The notes beneath the pieces are model-generated. The model was not told the origin of the DNA, made no database searches, and worked only from the letters and a program-made list of their open reading frames with translations. Of a DNA stretch of 64,000 bases, positions 24,373-61,211 are shown piece by piece. Numbering within the stretch: the stretch's first letter is position 1; every line of letters starts with the position of its first letter. This DNA comes from Methanomicrobia archaeon (GTDB taxonomy: Archaea > Methanobacteriota_B > Thermococci > Methanofastidiosales > NM3). Where the stretch lies: NCBI GenBank assembly GCA_030603445.1, contig JAUVXU010000001.1:1-64000 (forward strand). Direction: 5' to 3'. A program made the translations under genes and the position numbers.

Positions 24373-26601
24373 TTACTTGGAAACACATCCACAACCGAGT
24401 GCCTCGCTGATCTTTTCCATTATCTTAATAGCCTTCAACAGCTCGCCGTTTGAATAGATCGGATTTGAAAGAGATGCTGCGTTTGCCATGTGCATTTGCA
24501 TCTGTTCAAGCATTGCTTGAATGTCTTCCGGGACTTCTTCAGGTAGGTTTTCTGAGATGCAGGCAAACAATGTATTGGCCTGGTTTAAGTGATAAGTCGC
24601 CAGTGGCATATATATTGCAAATAGATTTATGTTTGGATTACCAACCCCAGCAAAAGCTGTACCTTCTAAGTCGCCTAAGCTTGGTGTTGTTGTATCATCT
24701 ATTATCGCCCATATGTAGTTCTCTGTAGTATTAACGCCAGAATTTGAGCATTGTATCCACTCTGCTCCGTTCCACCCTGTACATCCTGCCCCACAATCTG
24801 GCCCCTCACCCCATAATAGTCTTAATGAAGACTCATTGAAGCCCACAATCTCGGCATCTGTATAGTACAGTCGTATTTCAATTTCTGTAACATTTGTCGT
24901 ATCTGGAACGTAGACATCGACATATTTGCCAATATCCCCTGCGAAACCGCCGCCGGGGTTATCAGAGTATTTAGTCACAGTCACCGTAGCACTTCCTGCT
25001 AATTCTACCTCAGTATCTGCTTCATCTTTGGCGTCTACTGTATCGTCTGTAACTGTTTCTGTTTTTGAATCTTCAATGGGGGCACCAAGCCATGGACAAT
25101 AATCTACATTGACACTGACCGCATCTCCAGAACCTGGTCCTTCGTCAGATGGCCCAGAAGCATCGCCCCACCAGTTGTTGGTGGCGTCAAGAACTGTAGC
25201 ATCCTCATTCCATATGCCATACTCGGTGTTGTCATAAATGTTGTTGAAGTGGACGGTGGTAATGGCGTTACAAGAAGTGATGCCCCATTTTGAGCCCGTT
25301 ATAGTGTTATTGGTAATGGTTTGAGTAGGGGGTGTCGAAGAGCCGCAGTCCCAAGTTGCAATCCCTTCTTCAACATTATCCGTGAACGTATTCCCGGTAA
25401 TTGTAACAGTGATTGATGCATCCCCCCACGGGTATGTGCCGATACCCGCCTCTGTCCAGCCCGATATCTCATTGCCGGTGACAGTAGCGTCAATTGTGCC
25501 GCCACCGCCAAAAAATTCAATGCCACAATAAGGCCCGTCGCTAATTAAGTCATTGTTCTCTATGGTGACGGCTATCGTAGCGCCAGCATTCAGCGGAGCA
25601 ACTGATATGCCAGCGACATTATAAGGCCATGTTACTCCATTAAGACCGGCACTGCTTATGGTGTTATTGCTTATGGTCACTGTATACGAGCCGGCGTCAT
25701 AAGGTTGAACTGCTATCCCTTTCTGACAATCGGTAATTGTATTACCCGAAACAATGGCATCCGAGCTAGAGACAAGAAGCCCCGCAGCCACCCAACCATC
25801 AGGATCGTAAACCACATTTGACACCACATTACCAGTCATATTACCTGTAGCGCCGAAGCCAATCTGTATACAATTTTGTATAGTATCTATGGGGCCTGCG
25901 CCAGTAACCGTATTATCGTGGATATTAGCTGTAAGCCCTGCGAAATTGCAGGTAATCCCGTTCTTATAAAACGATGTACCTATATCGCAGTTCTTAATCT
26001 CCACCGCTACTGTTTCCTCGAAGGCAGACGCGTAGATACAATCACCGACGTCGTATGTGTTTGAATCACCGGTAAATGTGATGTTGTCAATAATGCCAGC
26101 CACCCCCTGGTAGAGGATGCCCACATTCTTATTTCCACTGCCCCAACTGCCGACTTGTGAGCTGTCAATTTTAAGATCTTTGATGGTAACACTATTGGGA
26201 GCCCCCACATTAACGGTAGCCACCACGATAGCATTGGTAGGACTAGATTCAGTTCCGCTTACCTTCTTGCGGTTGTACGTTTGGGTTATCGCTGTTGGCT
26301 GGATGATAGTGGCGTCACCCACGCCTTGAAGCGTCAGGCTCTTGTTGATAATCACCTGCTCATTATACGTCCCCGCAGCCACGTTGATGGTGTCGCCAGC
26401 AACGACTCTACTGTCATTAATGGCATACTGAATTGTTTTGAAGGCGCCAGTGCCAGTACTGGTGCCGTGACTCGCATCATCAGTGCCACTTGGGTCAACA
26501 TAGTAGATACTGGCTGCCTCCACCGTTCCTATCATTGGCACTATCGCTAACAAAGACATCAAAAATAACATTGATATTATTAAACTTTTCATTTTTTTCA
26601 T
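24373..26601 (-). CDS. Secreted right-handed beta-helix surface protein with C-terminal Cys module
   Basis: 742 residues. A signal peptide (MKKMKSLIISMLFLMSLLAI..., cut near VEA-A, residue 29) leads into YYVDPSGTDD and AINDSRVVAGDTINVAAGTY, typical of secreted parallel beta-helix proteins. Residues about 70-480 are beta-helix repeats full of NNTI, GNTI and ENND turns. About 520-650 is a beta-rich domain (KYSDNPGGGFAGDIGKYVDV). The last 85 residues form a helical module with ACI, HMANAASLSNPIY and a terminal CGC, shared with the gene at 32225. Probably cell-surface; could bind or modify glycans. ATG follows AAGGAGATATTTGAT. Confidence 0.8.
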   Translation of the reverse strand: MKKMKSLIISMLFLMSLLAIVPMIGTVEAASIYYVDPSGTDDASHGTSTGTGAFKTIQYAINDSRVVAGDTINVAAGTYNEQVIINKSLTLQGVGDATIIQPTAITQTYNRKKVSGTESSPTNAIVVATVNVGAPNSVTIKDLKIDSSQVGSWGSGNKNVGILYQGVAGIIDNITFTGDSNTYDVGDCIYASAFEETVAVEIKNCDIGTSFYKNGITCNFAGLTANIHDNTVTGAGPIDTIQNCIQIGFGATGNMTGNVVSNVVYDPDGWVAAGLLVSSSDAIVSGNTITDCQKGIAVQPYDAGSYTVTISNNTISSAGLNGVTWPYNVAGISVAPLNAGATIAVTIENNDLISDGPYCGIEFFGGGGTIDATVTGNEISGWTEAGIGTYPWGDASITVTITGNTFTDNVEEGIATWDCGSSTPPTQTITNNTITGSKWGITSCNAITTVHFNNIYDNTEYGIWNEDATVLDATNNWWGDASGPSDEGPGSGDAVSVNVDYCPWLGAPIEDSKTETVTDDTVDAKDEADTEVELAGSATVTVTKYSDNPGGGFAGDIGKYVDVYVPDTTNVTEIEIRLYYTDAEIVGFNESSLRLLWGEGPDCGAGCTGWNGAEWIQCSNSGVNTTENYIWAIIDDTTTPSLGDLEGTAFAGVGNPNINLFAIYMPLATYHLNQANTLFACISENLPEEVPEDIQAMLEQMQMHMANAASLSNPIYSNGELLKAIKIMEKISEALGCGCVSK

Positions 26602-28350: not shown

Positions 28351-28684
28351 GTGTTATCATCCAAATTGATTGATTTCTTAATATTTATTATTGAATACGT
28401 TAATTGGAGTAGTTATATACTTATCATTGAAGGGCTCTGAATTTATTGCACATAACTTCATATATACTAACTTCGTATTGCCTTTTTCTGGATGAAAGTT
28501 GTTTTTCTATCCTCCCTTCATGCAATCTGTAATTCATTTTTAGCTGACTAATATGTCCATATAGGTCATATTTAATCCCGAATAATATAATATAATGCTA
28601 ATATTTATACTTTTGGATAAAAATAATAGTAAAAAAAAGAAAAATTTATAAACTGCGTCATAAAACATTTGAGAGTGATATAAA
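28351..28684 (+). promoter_or_regulatory. Intergenic region with TATA promoter for the binding-protein gene
   Basis: 334 bases without a gene, AT-rich. AAAATTTATAAACTG at 28642-28655 is a good archaeal TATA box, placing transcription start near 28675, and GAGAGTGATATAAA gives the ribosome site before ATG 28685. A very short leader is predicted. Nothing else was recognised. Confidence 0.55.
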
Positions 28685-29887
28685 ATGAAATCAAAAACAA
28701 TTCTTGCTATACTAGTAGTAGTCAGCATTGTTGCTGCTGGTTGCATAAATGGAGACGATAGTAACGGGGCAGAAGTGGAACTTGTCTACATGTCTGGTTG
28801 CGGAACTATGCCTTTAACGCTGGCAAACGGCCAGATAGATGCTTACATTGCATGGCAGCCGAATGTTGCTATTGCAGAGGTATCCGGGGTCGGAAAAGTA
28901 ATCACCTATTCAAAAGATCTGCCTCCGGATGGAAAATGGGAAAACCATCCCTGCTGCGTGATAAATGTAACGCAAGGCTTTGCACAAGAACACTACGATG
29001 TTGCAAAATATCTCACGATGGTAATGATTATTGCAAGCGATTATGTTCAGGAAAATCCAGACATAGCTGCACGAGATAGTGCAGAGTGGATATTTGGGGG
29101 AGATGACCTCACCTTTGGAGATACTACGATAAGCTCATACGATGTCGAGGAAGCCTCTATCCCAACGATAAATTTCACAACAACACCAACAGACGGCTGG
29201 GTAGAAGGTATTTTAACCTTTGTAAAATCTGCAGAAGAAATCAATATGGTAACAGACAACTTGAAAGGAAAAACAGATGCCGAGATAAAGAATATTCTCT
29301 TTCATCCAACGCTCTACGATGACGCAATAAATGCCCTGAACTCAAAAGATTATCTTGATGCCCAGGTGAACGTCGATGAAGTGATTGAGGTAGATTTTGG
29401 ATATCTTGCAGCAGATGACCACGATGCAGCGCTTTACGTCGCAGCATACGAATGGGAGTATTTTAGAGACAATTATGGTATCTACTTTAGCCCAATAAAA
29501 CTCGGCCCAAGGGGAACGTACCAACTAGTTGTTAACGAAACTGTCGTTGCTAAAATAAACACATTCGAATTCGCAGGTGGTTCAGCCGAAATGACCGCTG
29601 CAAGTCAAGGAAACATAGATTACGGTCTTGCAGGAGCTCCGCCAGTTATACTCTTTATTGACAAAGGGGCGCCTGTAAATATCATATGCCCCCTCATGAC
29701 AGAAGGTTCAGGCGTAGTGGTCTCAATTGACGCACCCTTTGATGACTGGGACGGATTTATCAAGTGGATAAAAGAGAGCTATGACGAAGGAAAAACGGTA
29801 AAGATAGGAGATCCAATGATAGGCTCAATCCAGGACGTTATGATAAAATACGCGCTTAAAGAAGAAGGCATAACGATAAAAAACTAA
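28685..29887 (+). CDS. Circularly permuted NMT1/SsuA-type ABC substrate-binding lipoprotein
   Basis: 400 residues with a lipoprotein signal (VVVSIVAAGC, Cys about 20). The family normally runs lobe 1 then lobe 2. Here, after the signal, the second-lobe segment comes first: VYMSGCGTMPLTLANGQIDA, YIAWQPNVAIAEVSGVGKVI, NHPCC, and the helical tail to about residue 230. The first-lobe segment follows: VDFGYLAADDHDAALYVAAY, GGSAEMTAASQGNIDYGLAG, and SIQDVMIKYALKEEGITIKN at the very end. Joining the C-terminus to residue 30 would restore the usual order. The family binds taurine, sulfonates, nitrate or thiamine precursors; the ligand here is unknown. No permease or ATPase lies alongside; the Fsr gene is downstream. 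Confidence 0.8.
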   Translation: MKSKTILAILVVVSIVAAGCINGDDSNGAEVELVYMSGCGTMPLTLANGQIDAYIAWQPNVAIAEVSGVGKVITYSKDLPPDGKWENHPCCVINVTQGFAQEHYDVAKYLTMVMIIASDYVQENPDIAARDSAEWIFGGDDLTFGDTTISSYDVEEASIPTINFTTTPTDGWVEGILTFVKSAEEINMVTDNLKGKTDAEIKNILFHPTLYDDAINALNSKDYLDAQVNVDEVIEVDFGYLAADDHDAALYVAAYEWEYFRDNYGIYFSPIKLGPRGTYQLVVNETVVAKINTFEFAGGSAEMTAASQGNIDYGLAGAPPVILFIDKGAPVNIICPLMTEGSGVVVSIDAPFDDWDGFIKWIKESYDEGKTVKIGDPMIGSIQDVMIKYALKEEGITIKN

Positions 29888-30182: not shown

Positions 30183-32099
30183 ATGAAAGAGGAATACAAA
30201 TGGTTTTTGAAAGATGCCGTGGTAGACAAAGAAATGTGCACACTATGCGGTGCTTGCGCTTCTATATGTCCATACGGCATAATAGAGTTTGATGAAAACG
30301 GTCCGAAGCTAAAAGAGGAGTGTTATCGAAATGGCCATGGGGCCTGTAAAGATGTGTGCCATCGTGTAATGACGGACGCATCACGCATAGGACTCAATGT
30401 TTTTAACTTCAAAGCAAAGCCCCCAACTAATACAATCGGCCAATACGAAAAGATAGTTGCAGCGCGTGCAACAGATAAAAAAATCCAAGAACGTGGACAA
30501 GACGGGGGTGCTGTAACAGCACTATTGGCGTACATGTTTGACAAAGGGATAATAGATGGCGCCGCAACGGTAACAGGGATTGCAAAACCTAGTACTGCGC
30601 TCATAACGAACAAGGAGGATCTTTTGTCCTCACAAGGGGCAAAATACTCTACTGTACCAATAATGCAAACTTTGAGAGAATCTGAAAATTTAAAGAAAGT
30701 GGCAATTGTAGGATTGCCATGCCAAACATACGGCGTTAGAAGAACCCAGTTCTTCACTGGCCTAAACGTTCATCCGCCCGAAGTTGGAAAGGATGGTGAG
30801 GAAGCCCACATCCCAAATATCCCATATGTGATAGGATTATTTTGTATGGAGAATTTTAGGGAGGAGCGATTGTCAGCTTACCTTAAAAATGCTGGTGTTG
30901 ACTTAAACAAAGTGAGGAAGTGTTCTATACATCTTGACGAGTTTATTGTCGCAACAGATGGTGAGGACAAAGAGTTCTCTCTAAAGGAGCTCTCTTCCTG
31001 TGTATGGGAAGGCTGTAAGATATGCAGGGACGCCGTCTCAAAAGTAGCAGACATATCCGCTGGTTACTCGGGCTCTTCAAGTGGATGGACGACCTTAATT
31101 GCCAGAAACGCAAAAGGGCTTAAACTCCTTAAAGAAGCAGAAGGAGCAGGGTACATAGAGGCAACTGACGATGTGGATGTTAGCATCATAGAGGATTTCG
31201 CCTCCCTAAAGATGCGACGATTCAATAAGGAGTACAAGCGCCGCATAGGCAAGGGACAAGAGGTAATCGCATATTGGGGACGGGACTTTCCTGGTGTGCG
31301 CCCAGAGTCTGGCGGGACCTTTTTAGTAAAAATTAAAACCAAGTGCGGTCTTGTCGATGCAGACTACATGAAAGAGGTATCCAAACTTGCCAAGGAGTAC
31401 GGCGATGGAACCTTAGAAATAACAACTAGAAAGAGCATAGAAATTCAGGGCGTTAAAGGCGAAAACTTGGATGCCATCATGCAAGGGGTGTATGGCAATG
31501 GGCTCATGACAATAGGAATGGGCTATGCTACTGCATGCCCAGGTATGGCATACTGCCCCGAAGGCCTGGTGCGCACAAAAGAACTGGCAAACGAAATTAC
31601 CATGAAATTCGCCCAACGCAATATGCCTCACAAGATAAAGGTAGCTATTGCAGGATGCCCTAACGGCTGCGTTCGCCCCCGCCGGCATGACATAGGGATC
31701 ATGGGGCGGCAAAGACCAAAAGTCGATACTGAAAAGTGTACAGGATGCGGAAGGTGCAACGAACTTTGCAAAGTAAATGCACTCTTCACTGAAGCAGGCA
31801 AAACTGTTATCAACAGAGACCTTTGCATCAACTGCGGCTGGTGCATTCGCGAATGCCCTCATGAAGCTATGCTTGAGGATAAGTGCGGTTATTCTGTATG
31901 GATTGGCGGAAATGATGGGAGAAGACCCACTGAAGGTGTGTTACTAAAAGAATTTTGCACTGAGGAGGAAATCTTAGGTCTGATGGACAAAATCGACAAG
32001 GTCTTTGTAAAGCACCGGACCCAGCCAGGCAAGCAACGGCTTGGAAACATCCTAGAAGAGATAGGTGTGGGACATTTTCTACATGAATTAGAGGGGTGA
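30183..32099 (+). CDS. fsr: F420-dependent sulfite reductase-like protein (Fsr)
   Basis: 638 residues, close to the family length. Order: N-terminal ferredoxin-like cluster site (CTLCGACASICPYG, residues 20-33), FrhB-like F420H2 oxidase domain (about 95-380; GQDGGAVTALLAYMFDKG, GLPCQTYGVRR), then a siroheme sulfite reductase half with the ligand pairs CPGMAYC and CPNGC (about 455-500) and an inserted 2[4Fe-4S] ferredoxin (CTGCGRCNELCK, CINCGWCIRECP). It couples F420H2 oxidation to reduction of sulfite or a related oxyanion. ANME and Methanosarcinales carry group II Fsr, some of which have been reported not to favour sulfite, so the natural acceptor is open. Confidence 0.92.
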   Translation: MKEEYKWFLKDAVVDKEMCTLCGACASICPYGIIEFDENGPKLKEECYRNGHGACKDVCHRVMTDASRIGLNVFNFKAKPPTNTIGQYEKIVAARATDKKIQERGQDGGAVTALLAYMFDKGIIDGAATVTGIAKPSTALITNKEDLLSSQGAKYSTVPIMQTLRESENLKKVAIVGLPCQTYGVRRTQFFTGLNVHPPEVGKDGEEAHIPNIPYVIGLFCMENFREERLSAYLKNAGVDLNKVRKCSIHLDEFIVATDGEDKEFSLKELSSCVWEGCKICRDAVSKVADISAGYSGSSSGWTTLIARNAKGLKLLKEAEGAGYIEATDDVDVSIIEDFASLKMRRFNKEYKRRIGKGQEVIAYWGRDFPGVRPESGGTFLVKIKTKCGLVDADYMKEVSKLAKEYGDGTLEITTRKSIEIQGVKGENLDAIMQGVYGNGLMTIGMGYATACPGMAYCPEGLVRTKELANEITMKFAQRNMPHKIKVAIAGCPNGCVRPRRHDIGIMGRQRPKVDTEKCTGCGRCNELCKVNALFTEAGKTVINRDLCINCGWCIRECPHEAMLEDKCGYSVWIGGNDGRRPTEGVLLKEFCTEEEILGLMDKIDKVFVKHRTQPGKQRLGNILEEIGVGHFLHELEG

Positions 32100-32224: not shown

Positions 32225-32608
32225 TTAATTAGGGATGCAGTCGCACACTAGCAAATTATTTATCTGGACCATAAGGGCCATTGCCTTATTCAACTGGCCG
32301 CTTGCGTAAATGGGGTTGCTTAGTGAACATGCATTTTCCATGTGAAGCTGCACTTCATCCGCAAGAGGCGCAATCTGTGCAAGCATTGCATCATCCAAAC
32401 CACCCGCTTCAATGGTATCTGTTATACATGCCCAGATGGCATTGTCCTCTCTTAGCTCCGTCGCGACTATTGGCATCATTATTGATGGCCCAATTGTTGA
32501 AGGGTAAGGGGTTTCATACCCATTTTCTTCGTATGCCCCGACTGTGGACATGACCGTAGCAAGAGATATAACCAAAATCAATGAAAAAATTATGCTATTC
32601 TTTTTCAT
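32225..32608 (-). CDS. Small secreted protein with SLSNPIY C-terminal module
   Basis: 127 residues. Signal peptide (KKNSIIFSLILVISLATVMS, cut near VGA), about 35 linker residues, and then an 85-residue module that aligns with the end of the 742-residue beta-helix protein at 24373. Shared positions include MP, ACI, Q-HM-NA, SLSNPIY, G-L-KA and a terminal C-x-C. Start ATG 32608 is preceded by AGGTGTATACT; a GTG at 32617 is less likely. No known family was recognised. It is probably exported; the Cys pattern may form disulfides. Confidence 0.7.
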   Translation of the reverse strand: MKKNSIIFSLILVISLATVMSTVGAYEENGYETPYPSTIGPSIMMPIVATELREDNAIWACITDTIEAGGLDDAMLAQIAPLADEVQLHMENACSLSNPIYASGQLNKAMALMVQINNLLVCDCIPN

Positions 32609-32724
32609 AGTATACACCTACGTTATATTATTGTTAATTAATAATTATATTGCTTATAATAGAGGTCCCATATAAACTTTTCGTGTTATTTTCAAAATAT
32701 TTCAATTTCGGGGAAGCATTTTCC

Positions 32725-59567: not shown

Positions 59568-61211
59568 CTAGAACTGCATTTTAGATCCCATACGCTCTAT
59601 GATAAAGAAACTTGCAGCAGATACCACCATCAGCACTACCCCCATGGCTGCGGCCGACCCGAATCTATACCCCCCGATATAACGGTAAATGTAGATAGGT
59701 ATAGTTGTATAGCGTCCGCCATATAGCATGAATGATGCAGCAAGTTCACCAAGGGATATTGCAAATGAGAATACAGCTGCAGCTATAATGCCTCCTTTAA
59801 GCAATGGCAGCTCAATTGAGACAAACGCATGCAAATTCGAAGCGCCAAGGCCTCGCGCCGCGTCTATTAGTCCTTCATCTATCTTTGCAAGCGAGGCTGA
59901 GATAGCACGTACGGAGAAAGGAAAGGAAATGATCGTGTGTATTATAACTATCGCCCAAAATGACACATCAAGCGAAATACGATTTTCCAACACAATGTAA
60001 CCAAGAGACAATGTAATGGTAGATATGCACAAGGGCACCATTGTAGCTACGCCAATTATGCTTTTTCCCCTAATATTTCCTTTAAGCATATACGCAACCC
60101 ACATGCCAAAAGCGACAGATGCTACCATGGCCAAGAGCGCAAATATAAAAGATGTAAATATAGCCTCAAGAGGTGATGCGCCAAGGAAGCTCTTGCCTCC
60201 GCCAGCTATTATCTCTTTAAACCAATGAAGGGTCAGATGCGTCTGCCCAAGTACTGTACGCTGCAGCGATGCGTAACACACACCAAGCATTGGCCCAAAA
60301 AGAAATGCCCCTATCATGACGGCGTATGCAACAACACCCATCTTGGCCGCGGGTGAAAGAGAGGATATGGACAATAACACCTTTCGTCCCTGCCCCCCTT
60401 TCTCAATATGTATGCGCATGTATATCCAAACGACCACTGACAAAAATACAAGCTGCAGTAATGCCAAAGCGCTAGAGAGGCCGTATGTCCCATAGAAAAG
60501 GGCTAAATTGTAGATAGACACCTCTATTGTTGCATACTGCGGGCCCCCCAAAGCCAGGACTATGGCAAATGATGTGAAAGAGTATATAAAAGTGAGGAGC
60601 ATGCAAGAAAGGATGCCCTGACGGATAAATGGCAGCTCTATATCCTTTAATATTCTAAATCTAGAAGCTCCAACGTTTCTGGCCGCCTCTATCATCGAGT
60701 CGTCAATCTGGGTCCAGACCGAAGATACCAGCCTAAACACCAAGGGAATATTGTAAAAGGCATGCGCAAGCACTATTGCCCTCCAGCTATACAAAATCCG
60801 TAAGGGGGGTGCATCCAAGTTAAAAATGTCCATAAGCGTGCTGTTGACCACCCCTGTGTTTCCAAAAAATATTATGAAACCCAACACCACTAGCACCGAA
60901 GGCAGGACAAACGGCACAGTTGATATTGCCATAAGCTGGGCTTTCCACTTAAAATCATAATTTGAAAATATGAACGCCCCTGGAAGCCCCAGGAGAAGCG
61001 TCACTGCCGAAGACAGCAATGCCTGTTCAAATGTGAAGATTATAGCCTTCTTATAATAGCTGTCTGTGAGTATATAGCTAAAGAACGAGAAATGATATCC
61101 TTTTTCCCCTGCTATCCCTGAAAACAGTACTAATAACAACGGAAGCACGATTACTGCCAAAAAAACTGCCACAAGCAATCCTATCGACAGCAATCGCCAC
61201 CGTCTTTCCAT
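59568..61211 (-). CDS. thiP: Thiamine-type ABC importer permease (ThiP-like)
   Basis: 547 residues, a double-length permease with about 12 membrane segments and two EAA loops (ARNVGASRFRILKDIELP; ARGLGASNLHAFVSIELP). Members of this group move thiamine or Fe3+. Following the ThiB gene and preceding a ThiR-like regulator, thiamine is the best call. ATG 61211 is chosen because GGGGGATGAGA is upstream; 61217 and 61250 are alternatives. No ThiQ-type ATPase is in the window. Confidence 0.88.
   Translation of the reverse strand: MERRWRLLSIGLLVAVFLAVIVLPLLLVLFSGIAGEKGYHFSFFSYILTDSYYKKAIIFTFEQALLSSAVTLLLGLPGAFIFSNYDFKWKAQLMAISTVPFVLPSVLVVLGFIIFFGNTGVVNSTLMDIFNLDAPPLRILYSWRAIVLAHAFYNIPLVFRLVSSVWTQIDDSMIEAARNVGASRFRILKDIELPFIRQGILSCMLLTFIYSFTSFAIVLALGGPQYATIEVSIYNLALFYGTYGLSSALALLQLVFLSVVVWIYMRIHIEKGGQGRKVLLSISSLSPAAKMGVVAYAVMIGAFLFGPMLGVCYASLQRTVLGQTHLTLHWFKEIIAGGGKSFLGASPLEAIFTSFIFALLAMVASVAFGMWVAYMLKGNIRGKSIIGVATMVPLCISTITLSLGYIVLENRISLDVSFWAIVIIHTIISFPFSVRAISASLAKIDEGLIDAARGLGASNLHAFVSIELPLLKGGIIAAAVFSFAISLGELAASFMLYGGRYTTIPIYIYRYIGGYRFGSAAAMGVVLMVVSAASFFIIERMGSKMQF

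Follow-up and report, generated by a model that had tools for sequence, protein, structure and literature searches.

A circularly permuted NMT1/SsuA-like substrate-binding lipoprotein with a segment order shared among archaea

In a 64,000-nucleotide stretch of archaeal DNA, hereafter the window, we describe a substrate-binding lipoprotein of the NMT1/SsuA-like family in which the two segments of the polypeptide chain follow each other in the reverse of the usual order. The protein is very probably a working, permuted binding protein of a type I importer, with the order kept under selection; we infer its function, and its fold is that of a predicted model. The odd order would accordingly reflect a functional design that has been conserved, as opposed to a damaged gene.

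Sequence features of the gene

The gene is a 400 amino acid open reading frame on the forward strand of the window (positions 28685 to 29887) that is free of internal stop codons. It is preceded on the same strand by a putative TATA-box-like sequence (TTTATAAA, 28645 to 28652) and a putative ribosome-site-like GAGAGTGA motif (28671 to 28678), and putative T tracts are located 3' of the stop codon. The first part of the gene (28685 to 28744) encodes a signal peptide with the lipobox AAGC (MKSKTILAILVVVSIVAAGC), of which Cys20 is predicted to be lipidated. The window protein thus carries the anchor looked for in the binding subunit of an ABC importer, and a lipobox or a hydrophobic N terminus is present across all permuted relatives. 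The following segment (28769 to 29326) is C-terminal in canonical proteins and comprises the second part of lobe 2 (VELVYM...QIDAYIAW...HPCC) together with the C-terminal part. A linker (29327 to 29380), which lies between the two profile matches described below, leads from the former C terminus to the former N terminus. The last segment (29381 to 29881) is N-terminal in canonical proteins and consists of lobe 1 (GYLAADDHDAAL...EGSGVVV) and the first part of lobe 2 (KIGDPMIGSIQDVMIKYALKEEGI). The initial annotation had described a lipoprotein signal followed by segments in reversed order, and the open reading frame, the lipobox and the order are as it noted.

The next gene in the window (30183 to 32099) encodes an F420-dependent sulfite reductase-like protein with an FrhB-type N-terminal and a sulfite reductase C-terminal part. 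Two minus-strand proteins (24373 to 26601 and 32225 to 32617) have a C-terminal motif in common (MHMANAASLSNPIYSNGELLKAI / LHMENACSLSNPIYASGQLNKAM); one of them has a long extracellular repeat-like region before the motif, and the other is short and secreted.

Evidence for circular permutation

The Pfam profile NMT1_2 (PF13379) matches the window protein in two stretches (1.6e-24) with a score of 87.6 bits, above the gathering cut-off of 24.7 bits. The stretches are out of profile order, because positions 151-251 of PF13379 correspond to residues 28-136 and precede positions 26-152, which are found in later DNA (29450 to 29884) of the same open reading frame. The cut-offs of three other profiles were not reached by the window protein: it scored 66.3 bits with TIGR01728 (SsuA family, aliphatic sulfonate binding protein; cut-off 163.5 bits) and 44 bits with the SaoX profile NF040735 (curated cut-off 300 bits), and it also remained below the cut-off of the TauA profile. 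The TIGR01728 score is reduced because of the permutation itself.

A canonical profile was built solely from canonical-order relatives (42 found; those shorter than 430 amino acids were used). Native residues 29-214 of the window protein align to positions 161-324 of this profile and residues 233-399 to positions 30-161, and the two matches meet at position 161 with zero overlap and zero gap. The doubled mature sequence gave a single continuous match over positions 30-324 (220.8 bits, E=6.5e-66), compared with 107 and 102 bits for the separate matches. At the sequence level, two reversed matches of this kind that become continuous upon doubling are the hallmark of circular permutation. The chain is cut within lobe 2, where the helix that comes after GSIQD leads into the next β-strand. 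The lobes were therefore not exchanged as whole units, and the rearrangement is a circular permutation. Thus, both the reversed two-piece match and the doubled-sequence search, which the initial annotation had recommended, bear out its proposal of a circularly permuted NMT1/SsuA-like binding protein. Annotation by profiles divides such proteins or scores them too low, which makes it easy to misread the binding subunit of a widespread methanogen importer.

Predicted structure

Structure prediction had also been recommended, and a confident AlphaFold2 model of the window protein was obtained (nine sequences; pLDDT 90.4, pTM 0.89). For L007, a protein of permuted group II described below, AlphaFold2 reached a pLDDT of 41. 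The best VIA match of the window model is OpuAC, with a Z-score of 9.3 over 206 residues, 4.7 Å and 16% identity in a sequential and partial alignment, and OpuAC is also second in the Foldseek ranking, again by sequential alignment. Sequential structure alignments to known binding proteins are weak throughout (Z 9.3 or less), which would be expected for a permutation, though it is no proof of one, and the OpuAC match agrees with a permuted two-lobed fold, short of proof. According to the model, the chain most likely folds as a usual two-lobed binding protein, with the membrane tether departing from lobe 2 instead of lobe 1.

Distribution of permuted relatives

Segment order was scanned in the retrieved loci, which yielded 144 distinct proteins. 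The order and cut of the window protein, termed P1, occur in 99 of them, which belong to three archaeal phyla, and 42 have the canonical order. In two proteins (L055 and L194) the cut falls where lobe 2 begins (P2), and in a single one (L189) it falls inside lobe 1 (P3). The search for the same permuted order in related genomes, suggested at the outset, was thus answered by 99 distinct archaeal proteins. Full-length relatives with this order are found in the window's genus, Methanofastidiosia, Methanomicrobiales and Thermoplasmatota. The Methanomicrobiales relative L005 comes from a phylum in which 74 of 392 genomes have matches below 1e-25; for the phylum of L007, the figure is 21 of 389 genomes. 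Several P1 genes reside on contigs of 1.9-3.2 Mb (G288, G268, G506, G312, G448, G176 and G478). In 297 genomes of Desulfobacterota, all two-part matches checked were canonical. A canonical-order NMT1_2 protein was not found in the window's genome, and canonical relatives are present in some of the genomes with permuted ones.

The two P2 proteins (L055:5719-6675 in G019 and L194:4881-5837 in G020) start at the beginning of lobe 2 and end with ...NEGSALVVS, and their genes are located directly 5' of those for a permease, an ATPase and methanogenesis marker 2. The P3 protein (L189:442-1602 in G648) begins within lobe 1 (INILAQVNSEGSA) and terminates with GAPPAILRTVNAMA, and its gene is followed by importer genes. 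A gene at L168:3920-4825, whose NMT1-like product has the canonical order and lacks a signal, immediately precedes a permuted gene.

Evolutionary origin of the order

A tree was inferred from 90 un-permuted sequences; its groups were named after the tree had been seen, so the p-values given here serve as guides. Group I contains 32 P1 proteins, including that of the window, and stands next to nine Desulfobacterota proteins that have the canonical order and a similar length; group II contains 27 P1 proteins and is near other canonical proteins. Each of the two permuted groups thus neighbours different canonical bacterial relatives, and a single clade of all P1 proteins was rejected by the AU test (p=1e-44) even when the P3 protein and the nested L114 were added. 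L114 has the canonical order and nests within permuted group II, and moving it out was rejected (p=5e-6). The same protein is encoded at L193:4400-5527 and is a candidate for a return to the original order. Together with the P2 and P3 cut points, this nested protein shows that segment order was altered repeatedly. The test did not reject a union of the P2 protein L055 with group II (p=0.20), so that a common origin is possible, and its cut is therefore not counted as a proven separate origin. When the halves were analysed in separate trees, the same major groups emerged, with group I next to canonical Desulfobacterota in both, and the proteins are therefore not chimeras of different parents.

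On these comparisons, the window's order was reached independently at least twice, or once with later reversions. The first is favoured, because it is more parsimonious and because the canonical order prevails in the family at large. A single permutation event, with the canonical relatives inside the tree as reversions, would account for the one cut that is common to both permuted groups, and the position of canonical L114 inside group II means that the order can revert or be regained. Yet the AU test rejects one permuted clade, group I joins canonical Desulfobacterota in both half trees, and an ancestral permuted state costs more changes on the tree, which makes the single event quite improbable. 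For the order itself, we infer that it probably arose in an archaeal ancestor in which a canonical gene was duplicated, fused and trimmed.

Gene neighbourhood and a possible importer

An ATPase gene adjoins at least 88 of the 98 P1 loci examined, usually with a permease gene as well. The ATPase gene is downstream and on the same strand in 86 of these loci, and two more loci overlap its end. The permease gene usually lies between the P1 gene and the ATPase gene, and a gene for an HTH regulator is often adjacent. At L050:3064-3588 and L005:7214-7747, such a gene encodes an HTH regulator whose C-terminal part weakly resembles PrpR_N, and which is conserved next to the permuted operon in distant archaea.

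The window copy lacks such neighbours: neither a permease nor an ATPase gene was found beside it, the nearest PF00528 matches in the window being at 59583 to 60989, and the remark of the initial annotation that no permease is nearby is right for this copy. Permease and ATPase genes were likewise not found next to the orphans L001 and L002 of the same genus. Thus, the window copy is an orphan, whereas a paralogue in its own genome is linked to both importer genes. This second P1 gene (L011/L050), on contig C7, is 60% identical to the window copy with the motifs conserved, and is followed by genes for the regulator, the permease, the ATPase and methanogenesis marker 2. One orphan and one operon copy are likewise present in NM3, a member of the same genus. 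The earlier suggestion of an importer encoded elsewhere fits this operon, which is on another contig of the same genome. The top NCBIfam match of its permease and ATPase is the SaoX/SaoP/SaoA importer, with all scores below the curated cut-offs. Methanogenesis marker 2 is downstream in the operon at only four loci, which belong to the window's wider group, and it was set aside as a general functional clue for this reason.

The window protein is very probably a working lipid-anchored binding protein of a type I (SsuABC/NitT/TauT-like) ABC importer. It most likely binds a small ligand in its cleft and most likely hands it to the permease and ATPase of the C7 operon. Given the single permease gene of the relatives, a homodimeric permease is probable. 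Each lobe would then meet an equivalent surface on the permease, and a shift of the tether may be tolerated. It is possible, if somewhat short of probable, that chain order is fluid in this archaeal importer family, with at least two independent permutations at the same loop, further cuts in L055 and L189 and a reversion in L114, and that the move of the tether from lobe 1 to lobe 2 was selected as anchored proteins dock on the probable homodimer.

A maintained gene

The NM3 and SpSt-1146 orphans differ from each other by a dN of 0.02 and a dS of 0.26 (dN/dS about 0.08), and the window copy differs from both by a pN of 0.23, its synonymous sites being saturated. These substitution patterns indicate purifying selection on the window gene and mark the orphan as a gene that is maintained. 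The initial annotation had offered unequal exchange between two tandem paralogues as an alternative, which could in principle yield such an order and leave a functionless chimera or remnant. However, no tandem paralogue was found at the locus, the trees of both halves largely agree, the gene is under purifying selection, and its order recurs in 99 distinct proteins of three phyla, so that this origin is very improbable and was abandoned. An assembly error, also considered in the initial annotation, might be suspected in a genome assembled in 48 contigs, but the same order recurs in unrelated assemblies, including the contigs of 1.9-3.2 Mb, and the probability of an error is close to negligible. 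A further alternative is that the orphan copy is a ligand sensor or part of a receptor, which kept the permuted fold after duplication and feeds another membrane partner. This agrees with the lack of adjoining permease and ATPase genes at the window copy and at L001 and L002, and with the orphans forming their own branch in the tree (support 100/98). In contrast, the protein has a lipoprotein anchor only and no signalling domain was seen in it, no signalling gene was seen beside the window copy, and the protein is about 60% identical to the paralogue in the operon, whose motifs it retains, which leaves the sensor unlikely. The binding subunit of an importer is thus the preferred reading of the window protein.

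Ligand candidates

Coenzyme M (CoM) or a related sulfonate as the ligand is a guess from family and host and a rather doubtful one. An ssuABC-type system has been called a CoM transporter in the literature on the rumen and on Methanosarcina (PMC10658910, PMC12068725). The window's genome contains mcrA and MMP16 (ComF), and a ComA match was not found in it; the presence of McrA makes the organism a methanogen, or a relative in which this enzyme is used. A firm assignment to CoM was dropped, because the ssuA genes of the literature may or may not be the permuted ones and canonical relatives share some of the genomes. The conserved vicinal cysteines (HPCC) are also present in canonical bacterial relatives and are partly lost in one permuted subgroup, and therefore do not point to a ligand exclusive to methanogens.

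Comparison with known systems

Natural permutation of binding proteins is already known from OpuAC/ProX and TpMglB-2. Among the open-licence papers searched, no report was found of a permuted binding protein in the NMT1/SsuA-like family or in archaea, nor of repeated permutation within one binding-protein family. A family in which natural circular permutation apparently originated several times offers a rare test bed: its members with canonical order, with the window's order and with other cuts lend themselves to comparison of folding, ligand binding and docking, and of the effect of tether position.

OpuAC of Bacillus subtilis (2B4L, 3CHG) has been reported as a circular permutant of ProX (PMC2395249) and, like the window protein, is a natural permuted two-lobed binding protein, but it belongs to another family and has another ligand. 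TpMglB-2 (Tp0684) of Treponema pallidum is a proposed 'Type Ic' permuted lipoprotein that was shown to bind glucose (PMC4990184). It resembles the window family in being permuted, tethered and linked to importer genes, and differs in its Type I/cluster B sugar-binding fold, in being cut elsewhere and in its bacterial origin. The closest likeness of the operon permease and ATPase, below cut-offs, is to SaoX/SaoP/SaoA (NF040735, NF040733, NF040729), and the single-permease importer genes that adjoin the relatives of the window protein recall NitT/TauT-type systems. With SsuA/TauA/NMT1-like proteins (PF13379, PF09084, TIGR01728), the window protein shares the same sequence family in both of its parts; in contrast to them, it is rotated, is tethered on lobe 2 and scores below the SsuA, SaoX and TauA cut-offs.
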